A DNA stretch of 64,000 bases. Origin: Nitrospinaceae bacterium. Lineage in GTDB: Bacteria > Nitrospinota > Nitrospinia > Nitrospinales > VA-1. The stretch's first letter is position 1. The number at the start of each line of letters is the position of its first letter. Where the stretch lies: assembly GCA_021604505.1 (NCBI GenBank), contig BQJC01000002.1, positions 1-64,000 of the forward strand, written 5' to 3'. Position numbers and translations under genes: made by a program. The notes under the pieces were generated by a model. It did not search any database. It had not been told where the DNA came from and worked only from the letters and a program-made list of their open reading frames with translations. Of the stretch, positions 586-27,140 are shown one piece after another.

Positions 586-3500
586 TCAGCTGCATGGGCT
601 CGTAACATATTCTACGTGTAACAGGGGCGCGGCGCTTGAGACTCCGTTGTACGATTCAGCCACCCGTTCTCCCGTCCCATTGATGATGACCGCAAGCGAA
701 TTGCCGCTCTCCCAGCCCGACCGGTCAATAATTTCCTGGACGATTGAAGATATATCCGGAGTCCGTTGATTCGGTCCAGCCTCTCCCACCGAGTCCCAGG
801 GCGCCGGGGACCACGCCACCGAAGCCGTTGTCAGGGACCGCGAGGTGATATTGTTCGTAGTGGTCCGAAACACACCGGCGTTGTCGGTATCGTGCCCCCG
901 AACCGTGAGCGACGTCGGTCCAGAATGCGTTTCATCCGTTTGGAACTGAATATAGGCTTTGGTGATCGTGGAACAATTTGGAATGCCCACTCCTCTGAAA
1001 CGAAGACCAACACTCTGCGGGCCACCTCTATCAAAAACCAGTTCCAGGTCCGAACTCCCACGGTTCACACTTCCGGAGATTCGCTCTTCCGCATCGTCCG
1101 AACCTGATGAAATCCGGATGTCCAGAGTCTCACCGGAACCTGGCGACCCGGCAGAGACGACTAAGTTCACGGCGCTACCTGGGCCGACATTGCTTCCAGC
1201 GGTTGGGTTCTGGCTGATCACTGATCCCACCGAAACGCTGGAACTGTTTTTTGTCGTGACCGTTCCAACGGCCAACCCGGCACCCGTGATAGCTGACTCG
1301 GCGGCGGCCTGTGACTGACCCACCACCGCCGGAACCGGGATCGGTCCGGGGGAACCGCTGGAGAAAACCACATGCAATAAAGGCGCGCCACTTGGTGTGC
1401 TATCAAACGATTCTGCCGCCCGCTCCCCCGTTCCGCTGATGATGACCGCCAGTGGATTGCCACTTGCCCATTGCGGCAAATTAATGATTTCCTGAACGAT
1501 GGAAGATATATCCGGAGTGCGCTGCTTCGTTCCGGACTCTCCCAATGAGTTCCAGGGCACCGGTGACCAGGGCACGGATGCTGTCGTTAATGACCGCGAA
1601 CTGATATTATTGCTCGCGCTGGTGAACGTTTTAGGGTTGGCCGCATCCTGGCCTCGAACCGTGAGCGAGGTAGCCCCCGAATGCTTTTCATCCGCTTGAA
1701 ACTGAACGTAAGCATTGGTGATCGTCGCACCCTGAGGAATGTTCACTCCTTGAAAGCGCAGGCCCACCACTTGGTTGCCGCCGGCATCAAATGTGAGTTC
1801 AAGATCAGAACTGGTCAGCGACATGCTTCCTGTCGCTCGCTCCTCCCCATCGTCGGAACTCGAAGCAATCCGGATATCAAGGACCCCTTCGGATCCTGGG
1901 GAACCGGAGGAAACCACTAAATTTACGGAACTTCCCGGCGCCACACTGGTGCCGCCTGCAGGGTTCTGACTGATCACATCACCCGTTGGAACCGTGGCAC
2001 TGCTCGTCGTTGACGCGTTTCCAACCGTGAGACCCGCGCCGGTGATATTCGACTCCGCGGCGGCCTGTGACTGCCCCACCACACCCGGAACCGAAACCGA
2101 CCCGGAACCAGAGGAAACCACGAGGTTCACGGAACTGCCTGGCGTCACACTGGTGCCGCCTGTGGGATTCTGACTGATCACATCCCCTGTTGGAACCGTG
2201 GCACTGCTCGTCGTCGAAGCGTTTCCAACCGTGAGACCCGCACCGGTGATGTCTGACTCTGCGGCGGCCTGTGACTGCCCCACCACACCCGGAACCGAAA
2301 CCGACCCGCCGGAGCCGGAAGAAAAAACCAGGTGCAGCAAAGCCGCGGCGCCTGGAAGACCATCAAACGATTCCGCCGCCCGTTCCCCTGTTCCGTTAAG
2401 AATAACAACAAGAGGATTGCCACTCGCCCATTCCGGCAGGTCAACGATTTCCTGAATGACCGATGAAATATCCGGAGTTTGCTGACGCGATCCGGCCTCT
2501 CCCACCGAATTCCAGGGAACCGGTGACCAGGGCACGGAAGCTGTCGTTAATGACCGCGAACTGATATTATTGCTGGCGCTGGTGAAAGTTTTAGGGTTGG
2601 CCGCATCCTGGCCTCGAACCGTAAGGACCGTGGTCCCTGAATGTTTTTCATCCGCTTGAAACTGAACGTAGGCATTGGTGATCGTCGCACCCTGGGGAAT
2701 GTTCACTCCCCGGAAGCGCAGTCCAATTTTCTGGTTGCCGCCGCCGTCAAAAGCGAGTTCGAGGTCGGAACTGGCAAGCGACATGCTTCCTGTCGCTCGC
2801 TCCTCGGCATCGTCGGAACTCGATGCAACCCGGATGTCGAGGGTGGTTTGGCCGTTGCCGCTGCCTCCGCCTTCGGTCACCGTCACAGTCTGAATGCCCG
2901 TAGCGGAATTGCCCGCTTCATCCGTGGCCGTCCAAGTCACTTGAGTGCTGCCAAGCGGAAAGCTGGACGGTGCATTCTCGGTGATCGCAATATCACCCGG
3001 AGCGCTCACATTATCGGTTGCCGTAGCGGTGCCCAGGGCCACCACCGTTTGGCTTCCGGTTGCTGCAGCCGTCACATTGGGCGGAGGGATGATCACCGGA
3101 GGAGTGCTGTCCGTGCCTCCTTCCCCAGTGACAGTCACGACCTGCGTCGCAGTGCCAATGTTTCCCGCGGCGTCTAAAGCAACCCAAGTGACTTCATGGA
3201 TTCCAACCGGGAACAGACCTGTTGAGTTATTTGAAAGGAAGAACACGCCCACATCATCGGTTGCCGTCGCCTGACCAATATTTACCGGGGTCAGTGAGCC
3301 CGTGGAGTTGACACTTTTATTAGAGGGAGGCGTCACCCTGGGAGGTGTCGTGTCCACGACGACGGGAAACGTGAGAATATCTTTATTTGAAATATCGGGA
3401 TCTGAGGTGTTAGAGGCAACCGCAGTGAGGATCACTCCCGTATTTACTGGAGTGCCGGAAGGAGCACGGATATCGACTTCCACACTACGGGTGGCTCCCC

Positions 3501-4167
3501 GGCCCAAAGAAAAATTTACTGGAGAAACCCGGGTGATCAAGCCTGTAATCTCCCCTCGTGGATTTTGAGTAGTCCAGTCGATGGCAATATCGGTGACATC
3601 TATCGAAAATGAGCCGCTGTCACCATGATTGGTCACATCAATAAACAATGTCGATGTGTCCCCGCTTTTGTTGGCCGTGGTTCTGTCAAAATTAACCTCA
3701 ACGGTCTGGGGTGTAAAAATTTTAGAGAATAAAATGTTATAAGAAACACCGTCGGTATCCACTCCGCTGACCCCGACCTGGAAGGGCTGATCGGGTGGTG
3801 TGAACGATCCTGTAAATTCGCCGAATCCCGTTCGACGGCCATCGTCAAAAGGCAGAGTCAGATTGATGCTTTGCAGATTACTCCCGGAAAGAGAAACCAG
3901 CCGAAAAGCCGCCGTATCAAATGAGCCCGTCAAAGTCGCTGTGACGGTTTGAGAATTTCCGGCGATGGGGTTGCCTGAGACAGGGACAAGGGCTTCATGG
4001 CCAATCGGCCCCCTCAACTCTGCAAAATCGAAACTCTGGAATACCACGGGGCCGTTGGTCTGAGCAAAACTGGATTCCGCATTCAGGAAACTTAGCAAAG
4101 CGAGTCCAAGAAAAATAAAACCAGCAAGCTTGGAATTCCTCATTACTAATTTACCTTGAATGTTCAT
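586..4167 (-). CDS. Giant secreted HYR/PASTA repeat surface protein
   Basis: This 1193-residue secreted protein has a signal peptide (hydrophobic core about residues 14-36, cleavage near SSFAQ). The ATG at 4143 is an equally good start and sits directly before the signal peptide. Region 40-270 is a beta-rich segment I cannot name. Two HYR-type Ig-like domains follow at about 272-350 and 352-433, each opening with TPPxVxPP and ending VTWxAxDxAGN. The rest alternates an unnamed ~175-residue module (three copies, about 439-619, 762-940 and 1012-1190) with PASTA-like modules (two at 619-762, one at 940-1012; VPGVVGQSQAAAES, ISQNP). The ~175-residue module begins DIR(I/V)xSxSDDAEER, contains GLRFxGV, TPDISS and GERxAES, and ends LLHVxF/Y. 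There is no LPXTG or PEP-CTERM tail. It is probably a surface or matrix protein. The modular composition matches the giant protein near 18800-24466. Confidence 0.85.
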   Translation of the reverse strand: MNIQGKLVMRNSKLAGFIFLGLALLSFLNAESSFAQTNGPVVFQSFDFAELRGPIGHEALVPVSGNPIAGNSQTVTATLTGSFDTAAFRLVSLSGSNLQSINLTLPFDDGRRTGFGEFTGSFTPPDQPFQVGVSGVDTDGVSYNILFSKIFTPQTVEVNFDRTTANKSGDTSTLFIDVTNHGDSGSFSIDVTDIAIDWTTQNPRGEITGLITRVSPVNFSLGRGATRSVEVDIRAPSGTPVNTGVILTAVASNTSDPDISNKDILTFPVVVDTTPPRVTPPSNKSVNSTGSLTPVNIGQATATDDVGVFFLSNNSTGLFPVGIHEVTWVALDAAGNIGTATQVVTVTGEGGTDSTPPVIIPPPNVTAAATGSQTVVALGTATATDNVSAPGDIAITENAPSSFPLGSTQVTWTATDEAGNSATGIQTVTVTEGGGSGNGQTTLDIRVASSSDDAEERATGSMSLASSDLELAFDGGGNQKIGLRFRGVNIPQGATITNAYVQFQADEKHSGTTVLTVRGQDAANPKTFTSASNNISSRSLTTASVPWSPVPWNSVGEAGSRQQTPDISSVIQEIVDLPEWASGNPLVVILNGTGERAAESFDGLPGAAALLHLVFSSGSGGSVSVPGVVGQSQAAAESDITGAGLTVGNASTTSSATVPTGDVISQNPTGGTSVTPGSSVNLVVSSGSGSVSVPGVVGQSQAAAESNITGAGLTVGNASTTSSATVPTGDVISQNPAGGTSVAPGSSVNLVVSSGSPGSEGVLDIRIASSSDDGEERATGSMSLTSSDLELTFDAGGNQVVGLRFQGVNIPQGATITNAYVQFQADEKHSGATSLTVRGQDAANPKTFTSASNNISSRSLTTASVPWSPVPWNSLGESGTKQRTPDISSIVQEIINLPQWASGNPLAVIISGTGERAAESFDSTPSGAPLLHVVFSSGSPGPIPVPAVVGQSQAAAESAITGAGLAVGTVTTKNSSSVSVGSVISQNPTAGSNVGPGSAVNLVVSAGSPGSGETLDIRISSGSDDAEERISGSVNRGSSDLELVFDRGGPQSVGLRFRGVGIPNCSTITKAYIQFQTDETHSGPTSLTVRGHDTDNAGVFRTTTNNITSRSLTTASVAWSPAPWDSVGEAGPNQRTPDISSIVQEIIDRSGWESGNSLAVIINGTGERVAESYNGVSSAAPLLHVEYVTSPCS
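1881..2310 (-). repeat. Tandem PASTA-coding direct repeat, two ~204-bp units
   Basis: Two successive units encode near-identical PASTA modules. The marker gatcacatc recurs at 1972 and 2176, a period of 204 bases (68 codons). Long stretches are almost identical at the DNA level, which suggests recent duplication or gene conversion. Confidence 0.8.
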
Positions 4168-4753: not shown

Positions 4754-4799
4754 AACGGCAAGTTAAAAAAACCAAGCGTGAGGCAGGCAACCTGCCGTT
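4754..4799 (-). terminator. Possible terminator of BY-kinase-like gene
   Basis: Directly after the stop codon the minus strand reads GGCAGG-TTG-CCTGCC (4782-4796). A T-rich run follows about ten bases later. A wider alternative pairs AACGGCA (4754-4760) with TGCCGTT (4793-4799). The T-run is not adjacent to the short stem, so termination is plausible rather than certain. Confidence 0.4.
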
Positions 4800-5601: not shown

Positions 5602-5684
5602 ATCATCCTTTTACAGGGTATTGCTAGATCAACATTGGCGGCGCCCAAGGGCTCCTTATATAATAACTTTTGATGACAAATCTG

Positions 5685-7202: not shown

Positions 7203-7287
7203 TCAAAGGGTGTCCTGCGCGAAGTATGCTAGCTCCAGTCTGTGCCAAAAATTACCATGCCACTTAACCCTTTGTCGATCTATTTCG

Positions 7288-8001: not shown

Positions 8002-8116
8002 GGCAGATTCAGACCCCTTAAAACAACGTTTCCTTTTTTAGCCAAACACCCGTTTGGTTAAACTCAATACCCATGCTCAATTGGCAATCCATATCAGACA
8101 AAGAAGCGACAAATCA

Positions 8117-9051: not shown

Positions 9052-9065
9052 TCGCAAATCATCAC

Positions 9066-10316: not shown

Positions 10317-10828
10317 AATATCTTATACAAACCTGAAGAAAAAAATTTACAGTCGATCTCAAATTTCCGCCGGAGCAAAATCGAGAGTTGTTCCTCCCCT
10401 TCACTAGGCCTCACACATGACAAGGTCCTTGCGCACCAAAGCACACAAAGGACCTGAAAAGGCCCTGTGGTTGTAGGAATTCTCTGGGATGACGTCTTAT
10501 AGAATCTAGAAGCTCAAGCGTTTTTCTAATCCAGGTTTATTCCAGCCTGGTCATGCGTCATCATTTTGGTACTGGATTTTATCGTAATGAGCGAATGAAG
10601 CCGGGTTCGCCAAAGCTAAAGATTGCGCCAGCTTCTTCATTCTTGTCGCGTGAGTGAGGCCGGGGTGAAGAAACTTAAACGATCGAAGGTTTCTCAAACC
10701 CTGAATGCGAACTGCGTCCCGGCAGAAATTTACAGCATATCGCCGCATGCTTGGCAATCAGATGCCCAAAGAGGATAGACAAGCTCCATTGCCGAACATC
10801 ACATTCACCTTCCACACACCCACTTCAC
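10317..10828. other. Intergenic region between two EPS genes
   Basis: About 510 bases without a convincing gene. An 8-bp inverted repeat, AGGTCCTT (10423-10430) and AAGGACCT (10448-10455), could form a hairpin or bind a protein. The short open frames here have no supporting start signal or recognisable protein. The GT4 gene may have its own promoter here. Confidence 0.5.
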
Positions 10829-12349
10829 TCAATATGCATTCTTTTGAGAGGCAACGACCGAGGCAGTCATAGCCAGAATCTTAGCGTCAAAAAGCAAAGA
10901 CCAGTTTTCGATATAATAAATATCGTGCTCCACACGGGCCCGCATTTTCTCTGGGACTTCCGTTTCCCCGCGCCAGCCATTGACCTGTGCCCAACCAGTG
11001 ATTCCCGGTTTCACCCGGTGCCTGGCAAAATAACCATTGATAATTCGGGAATATTCTTCATTGTGTTCTACGGCGTGCGGCCTTGGCCCCACGACCGACA
11101 TGGTTCCATTGAGGACATTAAATAGTTGCGGCAGTTCGTCTAAACTGGTTCTGCGAAGAAAGGCACCGACCCGGGTGATGCGGGGGTCCGTTTTCGTTGC
11201 CTGCGGGACGCCTTTTTCTGGTGGACGCCCGTGATACATACTGCGAAATTTATAGATCATGAACTCATTATTATTGAATCCATAACGTTTCTGTCTGAAA
11301 AAAACCGGTCCAGGGCTTTCGAGTTTAATGGCCAAAGCGATGATCAATAGAATCGGGGAAAGCAGAGCCAAAATGAGCAGACCCAGAATTTTGTCTTCAA
11401 TCATTTTCCAAACATAGGTCCAGCCGTCCAGAGGTTTGTTCACCAAATGCAGCATGGGAACGCCGCTGATAAAGCTAAAACTCGGGAACAAATGCACGAA
11501 ACCCGCCAAGTCTGAACCCAGGCGAATATGTATAGGGAGCTCTCCAAGTTTCTTAGTTAGATCGAGGATACGATGATAAGCATTCCAGGGGAGCGAAATA
11601 ACAATATCATCAACGCGATGCTTCCGCGCGTAACAGAGGAGGTCGTCAACCGTTCCTAAAATCTGATATCCCATAAAGGAAGGCCCGATCCGCTCTTTTC
11701 TATCATCAAACACTCCTGCAACCTCGAGCCAGGGCTCCTTAGCACTTTGCATTTGCTCAAGAAATTTTTTGGCTTGCTCTCCGGCACCAACAATGACAAT
11801 TTTATGAGAAACCCGCCCCATATGGGCCCATCGCCAAAACAGAAAACGGCAAAGGCTCCTTTCCAAAAAAATTAAAAGACAAGACAGCAAAAACCAGGAA
11901 AAAACCCACACGCGCGAAAAATCGCCGACAATTTTCAACGCAAAGGCGATTGCTAAAAACGACAAGAAGGTGACAGCACCGATTCCCAGAATTTTGTGCA
12001 TGTGGCCCTTCGGGTTGCATATCGTCTCTACGCTGTAAAGATTTGCCTGAGAGAAGGCCACAACGACCGTTGTGGTCACTAAAACCATCGCCAGGGCATA
12101 ATCCAGAAAAATAGGAGACCCCAAACCCACGTAGTACCAGAAAATGCCAAAACCGGTACCCAGCAGAATCAATGCGTCGGCGATAGTGACAAGACCCGAG
12201 GCGATGTTCATAGAATAAACAAGACGGGTCGTTTGCGCATCCAATCCGGGTTTGAGTGCCGCATCAAAACCCACCTCCGAACCAATGCCGGCATCGCTTC
12301 CCTTTTGGGTTATTTTAATGGAGGATTTTAATTTACCGCCGACTGTCAC
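10829..12349 (-). CDS. WcaJ-like polyprenyl-phosphate glycosylphosphotransferase
   Basis: This 506-residue membrane enzyme starts repeat-unit synthesis by moving a sugar-1-phosphate from a UDP-sugar to undecaprenyl phosphate. The N-terminal half has about four transmembrane helices and a Rossmann-like domain (IVIVGAGEQAKKF). Another helix near residue 320 precedes the catalytic domain. There PVFFRQKRYGF, IYKFRSMY, RRTSLDELPQLFNVL, MSVVGPRP and VKPGITGWAQV are the standard motifs of the bacterial sugar transferase family. The DELPQ and GPRP motifs are intact. The GTG at 12349 is the assigned start. A second enzyme of this family lies at 35003-36376. Confidence 0.92.
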   Translation of the reverse strand: MTVGGKLKSSIKITQKGSDAGIGSEVGFDAALKPGLDAQTTRLVYSMNIASGLVTIADALILLGTGFGIFWYYVGLGSPIFLDYALAMVLVTTTVVVAFSQANLYSVETICNPKGHMHKILGIGAVTFLSFLAIAFALKIVGDFSRVWVFSWFLLSCLLIFLERSLCRFLFWRWAHMGRVSHKIVIVGAGEQAKKFLEQMQSAKEPWLEVAGVFDDRKERIGPSFMGYQILGTVDDLLCYARKHRVDDIVISLPWNAYHRILDLTKKLGELPIHIRLGSDLAGFVHLFPSFSFISGVPMLHLVNKPLDGWTYVWKMIEDKILGLLILALLSPILLIIALAIKLESPGPVFFRQKRYGFNNNEFMIYKFRSMYHGRPPEKGVPQATKTDPRITRVGAFLRRTSLDELPQLFNVLNGTMSVVGPRPHAVEHNEEYSRIINGYFARHRVKPGITGWAQVNGWRGETEVPEKMRARVEHDIYYIENWSLLFDAKILAMTASVVASQKNAY

Positions 12350-13274
12350 ACCGAATCTCCATCTTTAAATAAACCATTAAAAAATTTATTGAATCCAACC
12401 CGTAAAGCACTTACCTCAAAGCCACCTGCACGGCCCCAAAAAATTGAAACCCGGCAGACATCTTCCAACCCAACATCTAAACCTTTGAAATTCCATTTAA
12501 TTCAATCAATAATCCACTGCCTCTAAAATCAACGAAGGAAAAATACTTCGCCTAAGAAACACGGCCACCGTCCGCCCTGCACTCGAAGGTTGGATTTATC
12601 GACCCAGCCAGTGCTTTTGAATACCATTTAAGCTCACAATAAGAAAGTTGATGTAAATATTTATCCACATATTACATAAACAGCCAAAACATATAGCATA
12701 GTGCGTGCGTAAATGTCCAGAAATTTGGACAAAACCGCTTATTATCGGAATTCTGATCCACCTCTGATGGAAATGTGATCCTTTTCCCAACGGGCAAGTT
12801 TGCTGTCAAACTTACAGAGATCGCGTCCTCATCGGCTTAATCCATACACATTTTCTTTCCTTCTTTCCTTTCCTCTGGTGTTTAGGTAAAAAGGTCTTTT
12901 TCTGTTGGAAATCCGCTCTATCGGGCGCAACTCAGAAAAATTAACGACAACCCGGGCCAAAGTTGTTGTTTGTAGGTATTAATATGCTTTAACGATATTG
13001 AGAAGGGGTTACGGGAATGCAACAAAATTGTTAATACCACTTCCTGGAAAAATTACCTGCAGGCCAATTTACAAAACCCGTCTTTCAGGGGTCCCAGTGC
13101 CGATGGTTTTCCTAAAACGGGCTGAAAATCCGCTCAGCCACTTCCCAGGCCTGCCGCAAATACAGGAAGAGCCTTTTGGACACAATGAAAGCCATGAAAC
13201 CTGGGGGGATAGCTGAAACTAAGTAAGATGGGTCGTTGCTGGAAGGAGGATTGATTCTCGCCAGGCGGGGGTTC
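12350..13274. other. Long intergenic region with dyads, likely promoter region
   Basis: About 925 bases with no credible gene upstream of the WcaJ-like gene. It contains a perfect dyad at 12714-12731 and an imperfect one near 12651-12680 (ATGTAA and TTACAT arms). The length and the dyads make it a candidate control region for the left-hand polysaccharide operon. Confidence 0.5.
12714..12731. promoter_or_regulatory. TGTCCA/TGGACA dyad
   Basis: TGTCCA-GAAATT-TGGACA is a perfect 6-bp inverted repeat with a 6-base centre. It lies about 365 bases upstream of the WcaJ-like start. It looks like a dimeric regulator's operator, but no copy elsewhere in the window supports this. Confidence 0.35.
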
Positions 13275-14024
13275 TCATTCTCGTTGCCCAATCCCTTTGG
13301 AAAAACCATCTAGGATAGTCCGTATTTTGGATTCCACCGCATGGGGCTCAACGGAAGTATCGACCATAAACACTTGCACCCCATTTGCCCTGAATTTTTG
13401 GACGACATCCTCAATGACCTGTTCAAAGCGAAGAAGAACTTCTTTGACCTCGGGTTCCGAACTAATGGTTCGCGGCCAGTTCTCAGGCAAACCCCGTTTA
13501 ATGACCCGGTTCAAGGCATCCTTCATCGGAACTTTAAAATAAAAAATAGCGATTTCATGCGAGGGTATTTTTTTCAGTAGTTTTTTAGGCAGATCGGAAA
13601 AACCGGCCCCTCCCCAGACTTTAAAACTCGCGCTGTGATGAACCAGCCCTTCGTTCGGGATGTAAAAATTTGGATTTTGCGCGAAGGGTTTAATTTTGTG
13701 GAGAAAAAAAGTGGAGAGGTGAATATCCTCCGCCAGCCATGAAAACACCATACGGCGGCGCTGGGCCAGGAACTCGCGAAAAATTCCTCCGCCCAAACCG
13801 GCACTGATCAAGGAGTTCCAGATCGACAGGCGGTACAATCGGTTTGAGAGCATGCGAACTGGCGGATGGTCTTTATAGTTTGGGGTGAGGATGGCCTGCT
13901 TACACCTATCCTTTAGTTCCGCCCGGGAGATGACATCGATTCCCCGCTGCTTTAAGCCAAGGATGAGAGACGGTTCATAAGTTGTTTTCCCCGCCCCCGG
14001 AAGGCCTGTGAGTTCAACAATCAC
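13275..14024 (-). CDS. P-loop kinase, thymidylate-kinase-like fold
   Basis: This 249-residue protein opens MIVELTGLPGAGKTT, a textbook Walker A at residues 6-15. Later segments include PNEGLVHHS (where nucleoside kinases have a catalytic or base-binding DE-type motif) and a LID-like basic stretch (NRVIKRGLPENWPRT). It belongs to the broad NMP or small-molecule kinase group; the substrate is unknown. Its GTG start overlaps the stop of the upstream nucleotidyltransferase-kinase fusion by three bases, so the two are coupled. Their place between a flippase and a glycosylphosphotransferase suggests phosphorylation of a sugar or other polysaccharide precursor rather than dTMP. Confidence 0.7.
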   Translation of the reverse strand: MIVELTGLPGAGKTTYEPSLILGLKQRGIDVISRAELKDRCKQAILTPNYKDHPPVRMLSNRLYRLSIWNSLISAGLGGGIFREFLAQRRRMVFSWLAEDIHLSTFFLHKIKPFAQNPNFYIPNEGLVHHSASFKVWGGAGFSDLPKKLLKKIPSHEIAIFYFKVPMKDALNRVIKRGLPENWPRTISSEPEVKEVLLRFEQVIEDVVQKFRANGVQVFMVDTSVEPHAVESKIRTILDGFSKGIGQRE

Positions 14025-15484
14025 GCCTTCAACTTTGCGTTTATGGGGTCGAGCGCCGTTTCTAAAATAAAGTCCATAGAGGCATTTGCGTCAATAATGA
14101 CTAAGTTTGAGTTGCTGGAATTTTTCTCAATAAATCGTTCAAAGGCGGTTGTTTTTTTTCGAATCACCTCTGGAAGATGATCGGGCTTGCGTTCGATCGC
14201 ATTTTCAGAATCGACTTGCAGCACAAAAATAATGTCCGGCGCACCAATCTGATCGTAGCACTTTCGTTCGTTCTTCTCAAAACAGGCACTGCCGGAAAGC
14301 GAACCCCCGTCCCCTCCCAGGCCCTGAAACAGTGGAAACCGCTCATACAAAACGATAGCCCCTCGTTCCGCTTCAGACTTTCCCCTGCGATAGCGGTTTT
14401 GTTTCTCTTTGGCCATCAGATAATTTGTATAACCAAAATAGAGCCGCTCTATCCTATCGACGCCTGGCTGGAAACCCAGTATCCTGCAGAGCTTCCTAAT
14501 TCCCAAAAAGAGTTTTCTAAAACCAATTGAAAATATCCATCGGGGAAGGTCTCTGGAAGAATTGTTACCTCCCATATAAAAACGAGCCACCTTGAAATGG
14601 CGGCGAAGTAGATTCTCGATAGAATCGACCAGGGTCGTTTTTCCGGACCCGTCCGGGCCGCAGAAGGCAAAAGACAAGCCCTGCTTAGGCAATACTTTCC
14701 CCAGCCCAAAAGACTTTTTCTGGCTTGAGCGCGAAAGATGGACCCAGAAACGCATCAGCGTTCCGTACCTGCGGTAGGGAGCAATGCATCTTTTAATCTG
14801 GCGGCGTCGACTATAATTTAATGAATGGATATCATCGAATGTTTCCAGAACCAGGTTCCCGTCGATGAATGAAAATGCAGGGTCCTCCAACAACGCCTTG
14901 AGAAGGTCTCGATCACAGCGCGGGTGAATGTGCTCAAACTCCGGGATCAGATTTAAATAAATCCGTCTCGGGTCCCGGCGGCGGATCACACGGGCATAAT
15001 CCCGAAGACTGACCTTCAAGGACAGCCGCAGAATGAAAACGCACATTTCCAGTTCAGGCATCGCATAAAAAATCCCCTCCCCTTCGACAGCCGTCTTCAG
15101 ATACAGGGATTCCAACGGCAGCGAAAGGCTTTTGATCAACTTTTCGCCCATGACCAATCTGAAATGCACGTGGAAATGAATGAACTTTTTGTGCACCGGA
15201 TCGTATTGAAGAAAATCATGCACATCGGGAAAACGACGCCACGGTTCCGAAAGCACCTCGCACCATCCGTTCTGCCGAAGGGTGTTGAAAACCAACTGAC
15301 GTTGCTCTTTTTCCATTAAAATATCGAAATCCGTCGCTCCCCGGATTCCTTCTTTAAGGCGGTCAAAGCTTTTCCACAAACAATATTTGATATCCGCTTC
15401 GCGCAATCCGACCAGGGTTTGGTAGGCAAGGCTCGCCCTCTCCAAGGAAGAGAGAGATGTTTCAGGGGCAAATTGTGTCGTCAT
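14021..15484 (-). CDS. Nucleotidyltransferase-like plus thymidylate-kinase-like fusion
   Basis: This 487-residue two-domain protein is unusual. Residues about 25-200 resemble the NTP_transf_5-type nucleotidyltransferase fold: CLWKSFDRL, then ATDFDILM carrying the DxD metal pair. Where family members usually have an IDxHW-type strand it has FIHFHVHF, so the third carboxylate may be missing. Residues about 270-487 are a thymidylate-kinase-like domain with Walker A FCGPDGSGKTTL, a basic LID-like segment (RRGKSEAERGA) and VLYERFP. A strong AAGGAGG precedes the ATG. It is coupled to a second kinase gene downstream. I infer a two-step modification, nucleotidyl transfer and phosphorylation, of a polysaccharide-related substrate. 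Confidence 0.72.
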   Translation of the reverse strand: MTTQFAPETSLSSLERASLAYQTLVGLREADIKYCLWKSFDRLKEGIRGATDFDILMEKEQRQLVFNTLRQNGWCEVLSEPWRRFPDVHDFLQYDPVHKKFIHFHVHFRLVMGEKLIKSLSLPLESLYLKTAVEGEGIFYAMPELEMCVFILRLSLKVSLRDYARVIRRRDPRRIYLNLIPEFEHIHPRCDRDLLKALLEDPAFSFIDGNLVLETFDDIHSLNYSRRRQIKRCIAPYRRYGTLMRFWVHLSRSSQKKSFGLGKVLPKQGLSFAFCGPDGSGKTTLVDSIENLLRRHFKVARFYMGGNNSSRDLPRWIFSIGFRKLFLGIRKLCRILGFQPGVDRIERLYFGYTNYLMAKEKQNRYRRGKSEAERGAIVLYERFPLFQGLGGDGGSLSGSACFEKNERKCYDQIGAPDIIFVLQVDSENAIERKPDHLPEVIRKKTTAFERFIEKNSSNSNLVIIDANASMDFILETALDPINAKLKA

Positions 15485-15533
15485 ACAGCCGTCCCTCCTT
15501 GCCTGCCCTCAGATCGAAACGAAATAAAATCAA

Positions 15534-17036
15534 TCAATTTAACGCCCTCACCTTTGCATAGGTTGCACGCAATCCATTCAGCCGGATATTGTCCCAGAGT
15601 TTCTGCAGATACTTTTTTTCAGTGGGCGTGAAAAAGCCTGTGCTAAAAATAATCAGGATGTAAGAAAGCAGAATAAAAAATTTCAAGCTCAGATCAATGG
15701 CCATGGTGCCCGTATTAGCAATTCCAAGAGAAAGCAGGTACACGCCGACACCCACAACGGTGATATGCGACAGGCGGGCCAGGTCAAAATGCAAATCAAA
15801 AAATTTGGCGGAACAGTACAATCTGAGCCCGTTCAAAACCATGAAGCAACAGAGGGTGGCAAAAGCCGCTCCCATGATTCCCCATTTTGGAATCAAAAGA
15901 AAATTAAGCCCGATGTTTACAAGCGCTCCAATCAGGACATTCACCGAAATGCGAAACCCGTTTTTTGTCATCACCAGTCCCCAGTCAAAAAAACTGCCCA
16001 ACCCTGCCAGAATATAAGAATAGGCGATAACAGGAACCACCACCCAACTTCCCCAAAACTCCTCTTTCCGGGCGACGATTTCGATGGCTTCCTTACTGAA
16101 CAAAGACAAGAAAAGGCAAACAAACATTCCTGCCAGATAAAAATAGGTGCAGGTTTTTCTTAAAAATTCTTTTTGCCGGACAGGGTCGCCTTCCTGCTTG
16201 AACGTGATTGGCAACAGGGCGCTGGTCAGTGGTAAAACAATCAAAATATTAATGATCCCGGCGATCTGATAACCAAAACTGTATAACCCGACGCTCGACA
16301 AGGTGGAAAACATCATTAAGACGTAGCGGTCTCCGGATTGAATCAAAAGATTGGAACATCCGCTGATGATGCGTGGATATCCGTACTTAAGAGGTTGCAC
16401 CAATACCGAAAATGAAACCCTATGCTCCGACTCCCTCCAAAAAGTGGGAAAGATACAGCACGCCTTAAAAACGACGCCGACCAGGGTTCCATATACCAGC
16501 GCCATCACGCCCAAATCAAAAATAATGAGACCGGACAATACCGTACCGGCATAAATAAGGCTGTGTGCCCAGGAAATCAGAACGGTTAATTTCGCTTTTT
16601 CGATCTGTTTTAAAAGGGTGAGCAAAAACTCTGACAGCGGGTGAAAAAACAATATAACCGCATAAACCTGAACGATGAAAATCAGTTCCTCATTATTTAA
16701 AATAAGAGAGGCGAGGGTTTTGCTGAACCCAAAAAACACCAGAGAGAAAAACAGAGATTGAAGCGTTAGAAAAAATAAACTGTTGAACAACAGCAGCCCT
16801 TGTTTGTCTTTAAATTCAGGGGCGAAATAATGCCTGATAAATCCCTGGTTGATCGGCGGATAAAATAATTTGCCGCATATTCCAACCGTAACCCACATCA
16901 ATCCGATGATTCCATAGTCGGCAGTCGCCAGGTAAGTCGTATAAATGGGAATGAAAAAAAATGACATGCCTTTTTCCAAAAGACTGCCAATAGAATACAA
17001 CCCTCCCAGATAGACCAACCTTTTGATTCTTTTCAT
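15534..17036 (-). CDS. Wzx-type polysaccharide flippase
   Basis: This 500-residue inner-membrane protein has about 12-14 hydrophobic segments and the MATE/MOP flippase pattern. The N-terminal helix region reads LGGLYSIGSLLEKGMSFFFIPIYTTYL, where STxxYG-type residues (TADYGIIGL) follow, as in polysaccharide translocases. It would flip the undecaprenyl-linked repeat unit to the periplasmic face. The downstream gene is the nucleotidyltransferase-kinase fusion 49 bases away. Repeat-unit specificity cannot be read. Confidence 0.85.
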   Translation of the reverse strand: MKRIKRLVYLGGLYSIGSLLEKGMSFFFIPIYTTYLATADYGIIGLMWVTVGICGKLFYPPINQGFIRHYFAPEFKDKQGLLLFNSLFFLTLQSLFFSLVFFGFSKTLASLILNNEELIFIVQVYAVILFFHPLSEFLLTLLKQIEKAKLTVLISWAHSLIYAGTVLSGLIIFDLGVMALVYGTLVGVVFKACCIFPTFWRESEHRVSFSVLVQPLKYGYPRIISGCSNLLIQSGDRYVLMMFSTLSSVGLYSFGYQIAGIINILIVLPLTSALLPITFKQEGDPVRQKEFLRKTCTYFYLAGMFVCLFLSLFSKEAIEIVARKEEFWGSWVVVPVIAYSYILAGLGSFFDWGLVMTKNGFRISVNVLIGALVNIGLNFLLIPKWGIMGAAFATLCCFMVLNGLRLYCSAKFFDLHFDLARLSHITVVGVGVYLLSLGIANTGTMAIDLSLKFFILLSYILIIFSTGFFTPTEKKYLQKLWDNIRLNGLRATYAKVRALN

Positions 17037-17419: not shown

Positions 17420-18733
17420 TCACTCTATAAACTCATTACTTCCTAAATCTGGCGCTGTGCCAAAGAAATCTGCCGACAAAATGGTGAGGACCGTCTCTGC
17501 ATTATGCACAAAATCCGCCGTTCCCGAATTGATTGCCGGCGAGCCCGCCTGCAGTTCAAACGCGGGCGTAAAAAGCGGATCTTGGACGATTGTCGTCGCT
17601 AAATCCACGTTGCTTCCGGTGTGATCGGTCGTGTTGTTAAAAAACAGGGTGTGCGCCACGATAGACGTATTATCAATATTTTTGATTCCGAGCACGGAGG
17701 AGTTCGAAATGATGTTGTTGACGGCAATAAGATTGTCTCCACCTGTGATCCCGTGGGAGTTGCCGTCAAAGGTATTGTTAAAAACATGAATGCGCTCCGG
17801 CATGCTAGCGGCCCTGAAGTCTTCCACCGTCTCGGCATTGTCCATGAGCCCGAGACCCACATCGACGCTGTTTGTTATCAGATTACCCTCTATAACGAAT
17901 TTTCGGTTCGCGGTTCCTGGAGAATCGATCAGCTGAATGCCGTCCTCACCGCTTCCCGTGATCGTATTGCCTCTAATGGTAACGGTGACCAGGGCTCCGG
18001 AATAATTACCGTTGCGGGCTTCAATGCCGTCATCTCTTGCGGCATCGATGATATTGTCCTCGATCAGGAGGTCACTCTCGGGGCGATCGACGTCGAAACA
18101 GTCGTCGCTGGGGCTGAAACACACGTTTCCTCTTGCGACACCGCCCACATGCTCAAAACTGACCGCATCGCTTCCATTGTCATCGAAATGGTTTTCAAGC
18201 GCGGAACCGTTGGCAAAAAACACCACCGATTTCGTGCCCGCAGTAAAACGCAAACCTTTGATGATCGTTCCCGGAGCGGTTTCTTCGATGCTGATACCAG
18301 GCGCTCCTCCCTCGATCGTCGTCTGATCGATGAACGCTGGGTCCCCCGTAGTGTGAAAATGAGACGCCAGGGTGATCGCTTTTCCGGAAATTATGATGCC
18401 GCCAGGGTAAACGCCCGGCCCCACAAGAACCAAATCGCCATCCGCCGCGGCATTCACAGCCGCCTGAATCGTTGCATGGTCCTCTGGAACGCGAAGGGTC
18501 CCAGGTGGTGGCGGTGGCGGCGGCGGAACCCCATTGTCAACGGTCACCGTGACCGGGCTGGATAGTTTCTGATTGTTCGACGTATCCGTCCCCAGGGCGG
18601 TCAACGTCACAGGGCCATCTCCCTCCAGAGTCGTGTCCCAATCACAGGTGTAGGGCGGGGAGGTGTCTGCCACACAGCGGTTTTGACCATCCACCCGAAA
18701 CTGAACACTTGCAACATCAACCGTGTCCGACAC
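17420..18733 (-). CDS. Ig-like plus right-handed beta-helix tail of interrupted surface protein
   Basis: This frame (437 residues from a GTG at 18733) holds the rest of an Ig-like domain, a proline linker (VPPPPPPPP) and a right-handed parallel beta-helix. The helix begins TLRVPEDHATIQAAVNAA, GDLVLVGPGVY, as in pectate-lyase-like and NosD-like folds, and continues with repeated N- and G-rich turns. There is no signal peptide or ribosome site. The reading frame is open and clearly coding back to 18796: the segment EGATVSGTITLTA is the standard start of this Ig domain. That frame is exactly in phase with the giant protein upstream, from which only the TGA at 18797-18799 separates it. I read it as the C-terminal part of that protein. 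Confidence 0.75.
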   Translation of the reverse strand: MSDTVDVASVQFRVDGQNRCVADTSPPYTCDWDTTLEGDGPVTLTALGTDTSNNQKLSSPVTVTVDNGVPPPPPPPPGTLRVPEDHATIQAAVNAAADGDLVLVGPGVYPGGIIISGKAITLASHFHTTGDPAFIDQTTIEGGAPGISIEETAPGTIIKGLRFTAGTKSVVFFANGSALENHFDDNGSDAVSFEHVGGVARGNVCFSPSDDCFDVDRPESDLLIEDNIIDAARDDGIEARNGNYSGALVTVTIRGNTITGSGEDGIQLIDSPGTANRKFVIEGNLITNSVDVGLGLMDNAETVEDFRAASMPERIHVFNNTFDGNSHGITGGDNLIAVNNIISNSSVLGIKNIDNTSIVAHTLFFNNTTDHTGSNVDLATTIVQDPLFTPAFELQAGSPAINSGTADFVHNAETVLTILSADFFGTAPDLGSNEFIE

Positions 18734-18796
18734 GGCTGCCGTGAGTGTGATGGTTCCTGAGACTGTAGCGCCTTCAGAAGGAAAGCTTATGAAGGT

Positions 18797-18799
18797 TCA
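18797..18799 (-). other. Single in-frame TGA splitting a giant surface protein
   Basis: On the minus strand the frame reads GTA CCG CCA TGA ACC TTC ATA AGC. The codons before it end a conserved repeat module and those after it lead directly into an Ig-like domain, in the same frame. It may be a nonsense mutation, a sequencing error or a readthrough site (UGA followed by A). Confidence 0.8.
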
Positions 18800-21700
18800 T
18801 GGCGGTACCGTTGAATATTCGACATGTAAGAGCGGCGCGGCGCCGGGAACGCCGTTGAACGATTCGGCCGTCCGCTCCCCGGTCCCGCTGAGGATGATCG
18901 CCAGCGGATTGCCGCTTGCCCATCCCGGCAAATTGATGATTTCCTGAATCACTGCAGAAATATCCGGTGTGCGCTGATCCAATCCAGCCTCGCCCACCGT
19001 GTTCCATGGAGCCGGAAACCAGGGCACCGCGGCCGTCGTTAAGGGCCGCGAAGTGATGTTATTGACCACCGTTGCAAACGAGGCGGCGTTGATAACGTCT
19101 TGCCCCTGAACCGTAAGAGACGTGGCCCCGGTGTTCACCTCATCCGCCTGAAATTGGACATAAGCGTTGTTGATCGTGGCCCCTGGTGGGATCGTCACCC
19201 CCTGGAAACGCACGCCAACGGTCTGGTTGCCGCCGCTATCGAACACCAGCTCAAGATCAGAGCTTCCATTGTTGACCGTCCCGTTCGCACGTTCTTCCGC
19301 GTCATCCGAATTGGAGGAAACCCGGACATCGAGGGTCAAACCGGTTCCTGGCGGTCCAGAAGAAACGACCAGGTTCACGGAACTGCCCGGCGCCACACTA
19401 CTGCCCCCAACCGGGTTTTGACTGATCACATCCCCGGCAGGGACGGTCTCGCTGCTCTGCGGTGTAACCGTTCCAACCACCAGGCTCGCGCCGGTAATCG
19501 CCGATTCCGCAGCAGCCTGCGTCAGACCCACCACATCAGGCACGTTCACAGGCGCACCAGCTGAGAAAACCACATGTAAGAGCGGCGCGGCCCCTGGAAC
19601 TCCATTGAACGATTCGGCGACCCGCTCCCCGCTTCCACTGATGATGACCGCCAGCGGATTGCCGATCGCCCATCCCGGCAAATTGATGATTTCCTGAACG
19701 ATCGATGAAATATTCGGAGTCTGCTGATTCAACCCGGCTTCGCCCACCGAATTCCAGGGAGCCGGTGACCAGGGCACCGAGGCCGTCGTCAAGGGCCTTA
19801 ACGTAATATTATTGGTCGCGCTGGTGAACGTTGCAGGATTGGCGCTGTTCTGGCCACGCACTGTGAGGGTCGTGGCCCCTGCATGCGTTTCATCCGCTTG
19901 AAACTGAATGTAAGCATCGGTGATCGTCGCCCCAGGGGGAATGTCGACTCCAGCAAAACGCAGACCGACGGTCTGGTTGCCGCCGCTGTCAAAAACCATC
20001 TCAAGGTCCGTGCTGGAAAGCGACATACTGCCCGTCGCCCGTTCTTCCGCATCGTCCGAACCCGCTGATATCCGAACATCGATAGTCAGGCCAGAGCCTG
20101 GCGGTCCTGAAGAAACGACCAGGTCCACGGCACTGCCCGACGGAACGCTGGTGCCGCCGATCGGATTCTGACTGATCACATCCCCTGCCGGAACGGTGTC
20201 ACTGCTTTGTTGTGTAACTGTCCCCACCACCAGACCTGCATTGACAATGGCCGATTCCGCGGCGGCCTGCGCCAGACCCACCACATCCGGGACGTTGACA
20301 GGAACCGGGCCTGTGGAAACCACCAGATCAACAGCACTCCCCGGCGCCACACTGGTACCGCCAATCGGATTCTGGCTGATCACATCCCCTGCTGGAACTG
20401 TAGCGCTGCTTTGTTGCGTGACCGTTCCCACAACCAGACCCGCATTGACGATCGCCGTTTCCGCCGCCGCCTGCGCCAGGCCCACCACATTCGGTACGTT
20501 TACCGGCGTTGGACCGCTGGAAACCACCAGATCAACAACACTCCCCGGATCCACACTGGTGCCGCCAATCGGGTTCTGGCTGATCACATCCCCTGCGGGT
20601 ACCGTGGGGCTGCCTTGCGTCGTCACCGTTCCCACCACCAGACCCGCATTGACAATCGCCGTTTCCGCCGCCGCCTGCGCCAGACCCACCACATTAGGAA
20701 CATTGACAGGCGGCCCTAAAGAAACCACAAGGTCCACGGCACTGCCAGACAACGCAGTGGAACCGCCGATCGGATTCTGGCTGATCACATCCCCTAAGGG
20801 CACCGTGGCGCTGCTTTGTTGCGTGACCGTTCCCACCACCAGACTCGCGTTGACAATCGCCGTTTCCGCCGCCGCCTGCGCCAGGCCCACCACATCTGGA
20901 ACGTTCACAGGAACGCCGGTGGAATAAACCACGTGCAACAGAGGTGCGGCGCTCGGGATTCCATTGAACGATTCCGCCACCCGTTCCCCGCTTCCACTGA
21001 TGATGACCGCCAGCGCGTTGCCGCTCGCCCATCCCGGCAAATTAACGATTTCCTGAATGACCGATGAAATATCCGCGGTCCGTTGATCCGGTCCGGCTTC
21101 CCCCACAATATTCCACGGGACCGGAGACCAGGGCACCGAGGCCGTCGTCAAAGGCCGTGAGGTGATGTTATTGGTCGCGCTGGTGAACGTCGCAGGGTTG
21201 GCGCTGTTCTGTCCTTGAACCGTGAGAGATGTAACCCCTGAGTGCGTTTCATCCGCTTGAAACTGAACGTAGGCCTCGGTGATCGTCGCTCCAGGCGGAA
21301 TGGCCACGCCCAGGAAACGCAGACCCACGGTCTGGTTGCCGCCGCTATCGAACACCAGCTCAAGGTCGGTGCTGGACAGCGACACGCTTCCCGTCGCCCG
21401 CTCTTCCGCATCGTCCGAACCCGCTGATACTCGAACATCGACAGTCACACCCGATCCAGGCGGGCCTGTGGAAACCACAAGATCGACGGCACTGCCCGAT
21501 GGAACGCTGGTACCGCCGATCGGATTCTGACTGATCACATCCCCTGCGGGAACGGTGTTACTGCTCTCTAGAGTGACCGTTCCCACCACCAGACTCGCGT
21601 TGACAATCGCCGTTTCCGCCGCCGCCTGCGTCAGACCCACCACATTCGGCACGTTGACAGGCACCGAGCCTGTGGAGACGACCAGATTCACAGCCGTGCC

Positions 21701-24466
21701 TGGGGCCACACTGGTGCCGCCAATCGGATTCTGGCTGATCACATCCCCAACAGGAACGGTAACACTGCTCTGTTGCGTGATCGTTCCCACCACCAGATTC
21801 GCGTTGACAATTGCCGCTTCCGCCGCCGCCTGCGCCAGACCCACCACATCCGGAACCGTTTCCGACCCCACAATGGTAGAAAAAACTATGTGCAAGAGAG
21901 GCGCGGCGCTCGGAGTGCCATCGAAGGATTCAGCCGTCCGCTCACCGGTTCCCCCAATGATGACCGCCAGTGGATTGCCACTCGCCCATCCCGGCAAATT
22001 AACGATTTCCTGAATGACCGAAGATATGTCCGGGGTGCGCTGATCCAATCCGGCCTCCCCCACCGAATTCCAGGGAGCCGGTGACCAGGGCACGGAAGCC
22101 GTCGTCAAGGGCCGCAAGGTGATGTTGTTGCCTGCACTGGTAAACGTCGCGGGATTGGCGCTGTTCTGTCCCTGAACCGTGAGAGGCGTGGCCCCGGTGT
22201 TTACCTCATCAACTTGAAACTGAACATAGGCGCTGAGAATGGTAGAACCTGGGGGAATATTCACTCCCGTAAAACGCAAGCCAACGGTCTGGTTGCCTCC
22301 GCTGTCAAAGACCATCTCAAGATCGCTGCTGGACAGCGACATGTTTCCGGTGGACCGTTCTTCCGCGTCATCCGAACTCGCCGCAATACGAATGTCCACG
22401 GTCGCTTCTCCAAAATTTGAAGCGGTAACGGTCATATCATCAAAACGCGTCTGCTCACCGTCAAAGGCACTCAGGCGCAAAACGTAGCTTCCCGCTGTCG
22501 AAAAACTCGCCGTCGTGTCCTCGACATTTTCATTCGCGAAAGTCACCGTGCCCGGACCGCTCACCTTGCTCCAGGTGATGGTCGGAACCGGTAATGTTTC
22601 GCCGTCATCGGTGACGGTTCCATCCAGAACCGCATCGTCAGGCAAAGTGATCGCCTGGTCTAGCCCCGCATTAACATCCGGCGGCGTGTTGCCGGGGGTG
22701 ACGGAGTTCGGAATGGTGAGTTCATAAACTTTACCGTCGTTCTCGTTGGGGTCGGCATTGTTATCTACACCGCGGTCCGCGAGATAGAGACTGTTCAGCG
22801 CCGGATTCCCGCTACTGGGCGCGAAGGCCAGGCCGGCCGCCTTGATCGGATTCGCCGCTGAAATATCAATGTTCTGTATAAGAGCGCCTGCCGTCGTCAG
22901 GGCCACAATGATATCCTGACTGCTTCGACCGACAACGTACAAGAGTTGAGCGACCGTATCGTAGGTGATGCCTTCAGGATCCTGCACACCCAAAACGCCT
23001 ACGTCGAAGCTCGTCACCACATCGTCCACCCCCACGCCATCGAAAATTCCATTCGGTCCCGGAGAAATTTCGTAAACTTCGCTGTTGATTCCATCCACCA
23101 TATAGAGGAACCCTTGAAACGGATCGTAAGCGATCCCTTCCGGGTCCGTACTGCCAAACGCTGTGGTGTCAAAAGAGCTCAGGACGTCGTCTGCGGTGTT
23201 GAACTGACCGTCGGCCCCCGGATTGAGTTCAAAAATGCGTTTCGCATCATCATCGGAAATAAAGAGGTGATTATTGGATGAATTGAAAGCGATCCCGGTC
23301 GGCTCATCCGAAAAACTGATCGCCGTCAGCGTGTCCAGGAGAATCCCATCCAAAGTAATATTGAAAAGGTTATCGCCGGTAAAGAGCGAACCGATTTCAT
23401 TGACTTCCGAATCGGCCAGGAAAAGGGTTCCCGAATAAAATCCGGAGCTCATAAAAGCCACCCCTGCGGTGTCGGGGCTGGGAGGTGAAAACGCAGAAGC
23501 GTCGATGGTGCGGATCAGTGTGGAAACAAAATCCGGCTCCTGGGCCTGTGCCGAGGCGCTCGCCACTGGAGCCGCTTGCGTCAGTTGCAATTCCGTAATG
23601 TTACCAGCCGCACCGCCGAGACCGCTGTCGGCAATATAAAGGTTCAGTACGGAAGGATCGTCGGTCTGGTCCCCGCTCGGAGCAAACACCATGCCCTGGG
23701 GATCAGACAGACCCAGGCCTGAAACGTCCCGGCTCACCGCAACCAACCCTGTTTCAGTCACTTCATAAAGCAACTGACCAATTGAATCCAGCATATGAAA
23801 ATTGCCAGTTACAGGATCGAAGGCGATTCCTCGCACGCCGTCCAGGCCCTTCCCTGCCAGGCTCACCGTGGAAACCGTCGCCTGTGCAAACCCCTGGCTG
23901 GCATCCGGCACGATGCGAACGATATTGGGCCCATTGCCATCCAGAATGTATAAATTCCCGCTTTGCGGATCGACCGTCATACCCCTGGGATCCTGAAGCC
24001 CGAACTGGCCGGCATTTATGCTGGTGAGCGTATTGGGTTGAAGAACACCGAATGCATCGGCGGCAATCTCCAACAATTCCTGGGAACCGGGTTGAAAAAT
24101 CAGCAAACGGTTTCCCTGGTTATCAAACGTCATGTTGAGAGGATTCTCTACGCTGGCCGCCAGGGTCGCGGTCCCCAATAGATCCCCCACCTCGCTAATC
24201 ACAATGACATCAGAAGTCGAAGCCGGAGGAGTTGCCGGGCTTTCCAGAACAAGAAAGGTTCCCGCAGCATTGGAAAAACCCAGACCCGCAGGCGAAGGAT
24301 AACCAAGTGGTTCTGTATCGATATGCCGGACCACAACGGCATCATTCGATGACTGCGCCCAAGCCGACGGCCCCGAAACTGAGAAAAAGAAGGCGATCAA
24401 AATCCAAAGGAAGGTTACAAGGTTGGATCTAAGGAAACGGAGGCTGGGATATATTGCTAGAGGCAT
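18797..24466 (-). CDS. Giant secreted NHL/PKD/PASTA repeat surface protein
   Basis: I start this protein at the ATG at 24466, where a signal peptide begins (LVTFLWILIAFFFSV, cleavage near SAWAQ). The open frame extends to 24604 but adds only a non-secretory leader. Numbered from 24604, the domains are as follows. NHL/beta-propeller-like repeats span about 75-620 (GNLYILDGNG, GIAFDPVTGNFHMLD). A PKD-like domain spans 638-733 (PPDVNAGLDQAITLP). An unnamed ~175-residue module occurs four times (about 733-908, 1053-1226, 1504-1681 and 1754-1935). PASTA-like modules occur seven times (two, four and one between them; VPNVVGLAQAAAE, ISQNPIGGTS). The beta-propeller may bind ligand or carbohydrate, and PASTA modules can bind peptidoglycan. 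An in-frame continuation beyond the TGA encodes Ig and beta-helix domains. It is likely a matrix or cell-surface adhesin. Confidence 0.85.
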   Translation of the reverse strand: MPLAIYPSLRFLRSNLVTFLWILIAFFFSVSGPSAWAQSSNDAVVVRHIDTEPLGYPSPAGLGFSNAAGTFLVLESPATPPASTSDVIVISEVGDLLGTATLAASVENPLNMTFDNQGNRLLIFQPGSQELLEIAADAFGVLQPNTLTSINAGQFGLQDPRGMTVDPQSGNLYILDGNGPNIVRIVPDASQGFAQATVSTVSLAGKGLDGVRGIAFDPVTGNFHMLDSIGQLLYEVTETGLVAVSRDVSGLGLSDPQGMVFAPSGDQTDDPSVLNLYIADSGLGGAAGNITELQLTQAAPVASASAQAQEPDFVSTLIRTIDASAFSPPSPDTAGVAFMSSGFYSGTLFLADSEVNEIGSLFTGDNLFNITLDGILLDTLTAISFSDEPTGIAFNSSNNHLFISDDDAKRIFELNPGADGQFNTADDVLSSFDTTAFGSTDPEGIAYDPFQGFLYMVDGINSEVYEISPGPNGIFDGVGVDDVVTSFDVGVLGVQDPEGITYDTVAQLLYVVGRSSQDIIVALTTAGALIQNIDISAANPIKAAGLAFAPSSGNPALNSLYLADRGVDNNADPNENDGKVYELTIPNSVTPGNTPPDVNAGLDQAITLPDDAVLDGTVTDDGETLPVPTITWSKVSGPGTVTFANENVEDTTASFSTAGSYVLRLSAFDGEQTRFDDMTVTASNFGEATVDIRIAASSDDAEERSTGNMSLSSSDLEMVFDSGGNQTVGLRFTGVNIPPGSTILSAYVQFQVDEVNTGATPLTVQGQNSANPATFTSAGNNITLRPLTTASVPWSPAPWNSVGEAGLDQRTPDISSVIQEIVNLPGWASGNPLAVIIGGTGERTAESFDGTPSAAPLLHIVFSTIVGSETVPDVVGLAQAAAEAAIVNANLVVGTITQQSSVTVPVGDVISQNPIGGTSVAPGTAVNLVVSTGSVPVNVPNVVGLTQAAAETAIVNASLVVGTVTLESSNTVPAGDVISQNPIGGTSVPSGSAVDLVVSTGPPGSGVTVDVRVSAGSDDAEERATGSVSLSSTDLELVFDSGGNQTVGLRFLGVAIPPGATITEAYVQFQADETHSGVTSLTVQGQNSANPATFTSATNNITSRPLTTASVPWSPVPWNIVGEAGPDQRTADISSVIQEIVNLPGWASGNALAVIISGSGERVAESFNGIPSAAPLLHVVYSTGVPVNVPDVVGLAQAAAETAIVNASLVVGTVTQQSSATVPLGDVISQNPIGGSTALSGSAVDLVVSLGPPVNVPNVVGLAQAAAETAIVNAGLVVGTVTTQGSPTVPAGDVISQNPIGGTSVDPGSVVDLVVSSGPTPVNVPNVVGLAQAAAETAIVNAGLVVGTVTQQSSATVPAGDVISQNPIGGTSVAPGSAVDLVVSTGPVPVNVPDVVGLAQAAAESAIVNAGLVVGTVTQQSSDTVPAGDVISQNPIGGTSVPSGSAVDLVVSSGPPGSGLTIDVRISAGSDDAEERATGSMSLSSTDLEMVFDSGGNQTVGLRFAGVDIPPGATITDAYIQFQADETHAGATTLTVRGQNSANPATFTSATNNITLRPLTTASVPWSPAPWNSVGEAGLNQQTPNISSIVQEIINLPGWAIGNPLAVIISGSGERVAESFNGVPGAAPLLHVVFSAGAPVNVPDVVGLTQAAAESAITGASLVVGTVTPQSSETVPAGDVISQNPVGGSSVAPGSSVNLVVSSGPPGTGLTLDVRVSSNSDDAEERANGTVNNGSSDLELVFDSGGNQTVGVRFQGVTIPPGATINNAYVQFQADEVNTGATSLTVQGQDVINAASFATVVNNITSRPLTTAAVPWFPAPWNTVGEAGLDQRTPDISAVIQEIINLPGWASGNPLAIILSGTGERTAESFNGVPGAAPLLHVEYSTVPP
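20091..20925 (-). repeat. Tandem array of four PASTA-coding repeats
   Basis: The marker gatcacatcccct recurs at 20174, 20378, 20582 and 20783, giving periods of 204, 204 and 201 bases. Units are highly similar at the DNA level. Further single or paired copies lie near 19430, 21535 and 21740. Such an array can change copy number by recombination and is prone to misassembly. Confidence 0.85.
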
Positions 24467-25728: not shown

Positions 25729-26003
25729 AAATTTAATAATTGGTTTCCAGCACTTAAAATTCCAAATCCGATTGGCTTTTTTCTGAGCAACCTGAAAGTA
25801 AAAGCGCCCGCTTTTCGCCCCCTTTCACGATGCCATCCAGGTGTCAATCCCCTCGCCCCTTTTTTTGAGTTTTCCAAATCGTGACGTTTCCGTCATTCTC
25901 CCGGCAAACAAATATTTAATAATGATCCAACGCTTGTTATCCTGGGCCGCTGAACAGCTTGCGCCGTTTGGCCGGCATCGCCCCTTAATATGTGCAGGGT
26001 AAA

Positions 26004-27140
26004 ATGAAAATTGTAGTGGTTTCCCACCATACAAAATCTTTATTAAACTTTCGAGGTCAGATGTTGTCCGGTTTTGTCGAAGCCGGCCACGAGGTGACCG
26101 CCTGCGCTCCGGAAAACAATCCGGAGTTTATCGAAAAATTTACCCAAATAGGCGTTTCCTTCATCACTTTTCCTCTCGCGCGCAATGGGATGAACCCGGT
26201 CAAGGATTTGTACGCAATTGCGTTTCTCGTCAAAACTTTGCGCAAAATCAAACCCGAATATGTTTTTTCCGCTTCGATGAAACCGGTGATTTACGGGTCC
26301 CTGGCTGCCCGCTTGGCAGGGGTTCCCAAAGTTTTTTCTCTGATCTCAGGCTCCGGCTACGCATTCATGAAGACCTCTCTCAAAAACTGGTTGATAACCA
26401 TCGTGGTGACATCTCTGTACCGTTTGAGCCTTCCCAAAAATCGCACCGTCTTCTTTCAAAACCCGGACGATCTGTCGCAGTTTGTGGACTTAAAGTTGGC
26501 TCGCAAAGAGCAGGCGGTTCTGGTCAACGGCTCGGGAGTGGATCTGGAATATTACCGGCCGGCTCCGCTCCCTGAAAATGGACCTGCGTTTTTGTTGATC
26601 TGCAGGTTGATTCGCGATAAAGGAGTCGTCGATTATGTGGACGCGGCGCGGATCCTAAAAAAACGTTATCCTCATGCTACCTTTAACCTACTCGGACCGT
26701 TTGACAGCAATAACACATCGGCTCTAACCAAAGCCCAAATCGAACAGTGGCATCAAGAGGACCTCATCCGCTATTGCGGAGAAACCGAAGACGTGCGCCC
26801 GTTTATTTCTGCTTCCTGCGTTTATGTTCTCCCCTCCTACTACAGAGAGGGCACGCCGCGCTCGGCATTGGAAGCCATGGCCATGGGACGGCCGATCATC
26901 ACCACCGATGCCCCGGGATGCCGGGAAACAGTGATTGAAGGAAAAAACGGATTTCTTGTTCCCATTAAAGATCCGCAGGCTTTGGCCGAAGCGATGGAGC
27001 GCTTCATCGTTAATCCGGATTTGATTCAGGAAATGGGCGAATCCAGCCGGGATTACGCCGTCGAAAAATTCGATGCCCACAAGGTCAATGCGAAAATAAT
27101 GAAGACTATGGGATTGCTAAATGAAACAGGGAAAGATTAA
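26004..27140 (+). CDS. GT4-family glycosyltransferase, PglA-like
   Basis: This GT-B glycosyltransferase of about 378 residues begins MKIVVVSHHTKSLLNFRG, and the middle reads SASMKPVIYGSLAARLAGVP and SLISGSGYAF, as in PglA/WbpX-type enzymes. The donor domain has LLICRLIRDKGV and REGTPRSALEAMAMGRPII, with the paired glutamates of the family. The ATG at 26004 is preceded by AGGG at a good distance; a GTG four codons upstream is open but weaker. It probably adds an N-acetylhexosamine-type residue to a lipid-linked acceptor, though the donor is inferred only from family resemblance. It lies on the opposite strand to most of the cluster. Confidence 0.86.
   Translation: MKIVVVSHHTKSLLNFRGQMLSGFVEAGHEVTACAPENNPEFIEKFTQIGVSFITFPLARNGMNPVKDLYAIAFLVKTLRKIKPEYVFSASMKPVIYGSLAARLAGVPKVFSLISGSGYAFMKTSLKNWLITIVVTSLYRLSLPKNRTVFFQNPDDLSQFVDLKLARKEQAVLVNGSGVDLEYYRPAPLPENGPAFLLICRLIRDKGVVDYVDAARILKKRYPHATFNLLGPFDSNNTSALTKAQIEQWHQEDLIRYCGETEDVRPFISASCVYVLPSYYREGTPRSALEAMAMGRPIITTDAPGCRETVIEGKNGFLVPIKDPQALAEAMERFIVNPDLIQEMGESSRDYAVEKFDAHKVNAKIMKTMGLLNETGKD

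Follow-up and report, generated by a model that had tools for sequence, protein, structure and literature searches.

A nonsense mutation as the probable cause of truncation of a giant modular surface protein in a Nitrospinaceae bacterium

A single in-frame TGA interrupts a giant reading frame on the minus strand of the window, by which we mean the whole stretch of 64,000 nucleotides analysed here. Its best explanation, to which we give a probability of about 0.6, is a nonsense mutation that truncates the tail of a secreted giant surface protein of this uncultured bacterium. The translation shows where the stop lies and that a single frame runs on both sides of it; we infer that a mutation caused the stop and that the truncated form is the product of the cell. 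An event of this type is of an ordinary kind.

Results

The frame runs from 24466 to 17420 and encodes 1,889 residues, a TGA at 18797-18799, and a further 458 residues that end at a second TGA (17420-17422). Its parts, and the paralog used for comparison, are as follows.

18797..24466, minus strand: upstream reading frame of 1,889 aa with a signal peptide, NHL-type repeats, a PKD domain, four SDDAEER modules and seven PASTA domains
18815..19330, minus strand: fourth SDDAEER module, directly 5' of the stop, of the internal type, with the loop PPGATI and no cysteine
18797..18799, minus strand: in-frame TGA read as Pro-Pro-UGA-A, close to position two of the Big_7 domain
17420..18796, minus strand: downstream open frame of 458 aa, in the phase of the upstream frame and without a usable start
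18596..18790, minus strand: Big_7 bacterial Ig domain (PF17957), profile positions 5-70, with a first strand that reaches back across the TGA
17432..18496, minus strand: right-handed beta-helix (PF13229/NosD-like), with Pfam Beta_helix and NosD matches
586..4167, minus strand: paralogous giant of 1,193 aa, with a natural end at a cysteine-bearing version of the module (NCSTI ... SPCS*)

In the upstream frame Pfam recognizes the seven PASTA domains and the PKD domain (PF22352), and the four SDDAEER modules span about 172 aa each. The tail is not a chance frame, since 458 open codons would arise with a probability of about 3e-9 at its own base composition, its five other frames contain 4-36 stops each, and it scores the same in codon usage (0.190) as the frame before the stop (0.197). 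We saw no second stop or frameshift within its 458 codons, and its coding character is intact. The Pfam matches thus bear out the earlier sequence-only reading, which had placed an Ig domain and a beta-helix beyond the TGA at 18797-18799.

That reading had also held that the tail lacks a start and a ribosome site of its own, and this is what we find. The first ATG, GTG or TTG in phase past the stop is the GTG at 18733, codon 22, which lies within Big_7, and no Shine-Dalgarno sequence is present near it; an internal start was rejected, as a protein begun there would lack part of the Ig fold. Coupled translation via the ATGA that overlaps the stop was likewise rejected, the ATG opening an eight-codon frame in another phase. 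Shuffled sequence has promoter- and terminator-like sites at least as often as the region around the TGA. The AlphaFold model of the read-through Ig-beta-helix has a pLDDT of 43, too low to be of use.

The continuation after the TGA, TFISFPSEGATVSGTITLTA, matches Big_7 at 56 bits, against a cut-off of 24. With or without the upstream sequence, the match opens at profile position 5, which falls at the third residue past the TGA, so that the TGA falls within the first strand of the domain, and the domain opens with P-stop-T-F. The stop therefore lies inside a domain of one reading frame, as is the case in a gene interrupted by a nonsense codon. The downstream beta-helix is 27-32% identical to beta-helices of secreted proteins from other phyla.

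The module just upstream of the stop allows us to weigh a different explanation, in which the giant properly ends there and the Ig-beta-helix frame is the start-less remnant of a different gene or a product of recombination. The three giants of this genome contain eleven SDDAEER modules, and two paralogous giants do end at this module type (natural C-terminal modules at 586-1122 of the window and at 1456-1991 of locus L064). The EYSTVPP that precedes the TGA is as long as EYVTSPC and EYVPNPC at the natural ends, and its module groups with the terminal module of the paralog, although with weak support (0.78). However, both natural C-terminal modules carry one loop cysteine (NCSTI, GCSTI) and a second cysteine that is the last residue or adjoins it (SPCS*, NPC*), a pair that occurs in none of the internal modules of the three giants and is missing from the module before the TGA. 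The pair presumably forms a terminal disulphide clamp, as judged from the sequences; the rule rests on two terminal modules of this one genome, and three more distant module matches contain one or two cysteines. The earlier statement that the homologous giant at 586-4167 ends naturally at the same module thus holds for the module type, but the copy found there is the cysteine-bearing C-terminal version. A Pro-Pro C-terminus, moreover, is found in only one of 366 long frames sampled from the genome, namely the frame that ends at 18797-18799, and Pro-Pro is known to hinder termination in E. coli (PMC3834316). With the Ig domain starting exactly at the stop, in frame and with its first strand across the TGA, we regard a natural end as unlikely.

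The third giant (contig C4) has the same module type, followed by PPTVGINAPADG. PP*TFISFPSEG aligns with this stretch one-for-one, without an indel, which argues for a substitution rather than an indel at the stop. Read by eye, this 2,943-residue giant (1456-10287 of L064) appears to join a subtilase-type protease to HYR and FG-GAP-type repeats; it also seems to contain a stretch similar to metallophosphatases, besides its four SDDAEER modules.

Homologous modules of Rhizobiaceae also continue past the corresponding point. Those of Sinorhizobium/Ensifer plasmid giants (L110, L111) are 56% identical, and one of these loci (L110) shares the NHL-type repeats in the same protein family. In the stretches compared, all seven modules continue into a next domain, four of them through EYxVPP; these giants differ from ours in that no stop separates the modules from the Ig-like domains that come next, and in that a beta-helix is missing at this point. 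Among the module matches in other lineages, none ends its frame at a Pro-Pro tail. The Big_7 strand across the TGA, the missing cysteine pair and the uninterrupted EYxVPP tails of the Rhizobiaceae together place the stop inside what was formerly one protein, and the domain boundary, the cysteines and the homologues all support the original proposal of one protein interrupted once.

Searches of four congeners, the rest of the 100 genomes, the genome contig collection and plasmids brought up no ortholog of the tail; they yielded only weak matches, each confined to the Ig part or to the beta-helix part. For the N-terminal part, another genus of the family (G013) has a homolog at 53%, on a contig that stops before the modules. 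Synteny is of no help, as the neighbouring flippase gene is not conserved within the genus. Since the genomes searched hold no intact ortholog, the intact ancestral state is one that we infer. Beta-helix proteins that carry their own signal peptides exist elsewhere, a point in favour of a natural end of the giant; they are distant (about 30% identical) and have other domain orders, and so leave the one-protein reading standing.

The possibility of UGA recoding was considered next to that of mutation. A selenoprotein was rejected: the genome contains no tRNA-Sec above the cut-off (the eight matches examined are Ser, Leu, Arg, Phe and Tyr tRNAs), SelA was not found, and the hairpin after the stop, where a SECIS would lie, is no better than in shuffled sequence (z -0.5). 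Reassignment of UGA to Trp, as in code 4, is likewise unsupported: TGA is the stop of 164 of 387 long frames, prfB is present and the tRNA-Trp(CCA) is ordinary, with a 5-bp anticodon stem. The same observations speak against functional readthrough, in which a near-cognate tRNA would decode a weak stop and give a minor long form with a beta-helix tip. What favours such a product is the intact tail and the stop context Pro-Pro-UGA-A, for in E. coli Pro-Pro interferes with and slows termination (PMC3834316), RF2 has a low affinity for UGAA, and UGA stops can be leaky (PMC5373646). In-frame stops with conserved flanks are, in addition, reported to be widespread in prokaryotic genes (PMC7918605). 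We consider functional readthrough very unlikely on balance, and it is more improbable still that Pro-Pro-UGA-A is a built-in leaky switch, with the truncated giant as the main product and the full-length form with its Ig-beta-helix tip as a minor one. Of the readthrough that had been suggested earlier, dedicated recoding finds no support, while a low-level leak at this stop is plausible from its context. The suggested phase-like variation found no support: direct repeats are absent from the site, such inverted repeats as occur within 400 bases are weak and at chance level, and a phase-variable gene switched by slipped strands or inversion was rejected for want of a repeat tract at the stop.

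Finally, the consensus base could be wrong or could represent one strain of several, with the population encoding the full-length protein. The genome is a draft of 14 contigs with an estimated completeness of 96%, and the single stop is the sole defect in a 7-kb frame whose tail is otherwise undecayed, as would be expected from an error or a minority variant. Single-base substitution errors are rare in assembled consensus, however, and we judge this explanation rather unlikely, though it ranks second after mutation. A scan for split frames over 495 kb returned mostly ordinary neighbours and shadow frames; it also missed the site at 18797 and hence provides no base rate.

Discussion

Based on the above data, we favour a scheme in which a nonsense mutation interrupted a single gene. 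The ancestral gene would have coded for a single secreted protein, about 2,350 residues long, with a signal peptide, NHL-type repeats, a PKD domain, seven PASTA domains interspersed with four SDDAEER modules, and finally Big_7 and a beta-helix at the C-terminus. The TGA at the start of Big_7 would have arisen by a single-base change. Ribosomes would now mostly halt at this codon and release a protein of 1,889 residues, which would keep the signal peptide and most of the modules and lose the Ig-beta-helix tip. The tail, with neither a start nor a signal of its own, would then be a pseudogene remnant that is still undecayed.

The age of such an event is only loosely bounded. If the tail decays neutrally, about 0.16 substitutions per site must accumulate before a second stop is 95% likely, so that the word "recent" can be no more than a loose bound; the tail would also have stayed intact if a readthrough product were under selection or if the stop were a sequence error.

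The arrangement resembles the prokaryotic genes with a single in-frame stop described by Belinky et al. 2021 (PMC7918605), with one stop in an otherwise undecayed gene and coding character on both sides. It differs in that their stops were required in orthologs of at least two species, and ours is seen in one genome.

If the stop is a nonsense mutation, it offers a clean case in which a modular giant of the cell surface has been shortened at the border of a module, with the rest still secreted and probably able to function; it also warns that the tail will enter annotations as a hypothetical gene in its own right. Were the tail made by leakage instead, the site would be a simple natural test of the Pro-Pro-UGA-A stop context in a little-studied lineage. 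The terminal cysteine pair could mark natural ends in the family, provided that it is valid beyond the two cases.

As to the modules themselves, the approximately 172-aa modules of the paralog P0001 match DNRLRE (NF033679, also CBM96; PMC9971899) weakly, with a score of 22.2 that falls short of the curated cut-off of 34 bits. DNRLRE domains are repeated in surface proteins of archaea and bacteria (PMC9971899). A search of solved structures with the module profile returned no relevant match. Within the class the modules were found in this genome only, and they are patchy in distant lineages, a distribution that suggests their horizontal spread.

The giants of the window are located in an exopolysaccharide gene cluster with genes for Wzz, a sugar transferase, a flippase and glycosyltransferases (4798-17036 and 25992-27140). 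On a viral contig, an SDDAEER module (52% identity) is part of a secreted protein in which a Thr-rich linker joins it to another domain (L113, 3728-5533). Decayed module copies are also present in the genome that contains the three giants, a point in favour of the mutational reading. On contig C6 a copy with a part missing (an internal gap) is followed by an open YD-repeat (RHS-type) frame (L065, 3400-4400), and on contig C1 module fragments adjoin several near-identical REP-associated transposase-like genes (L066, 4913-8070).
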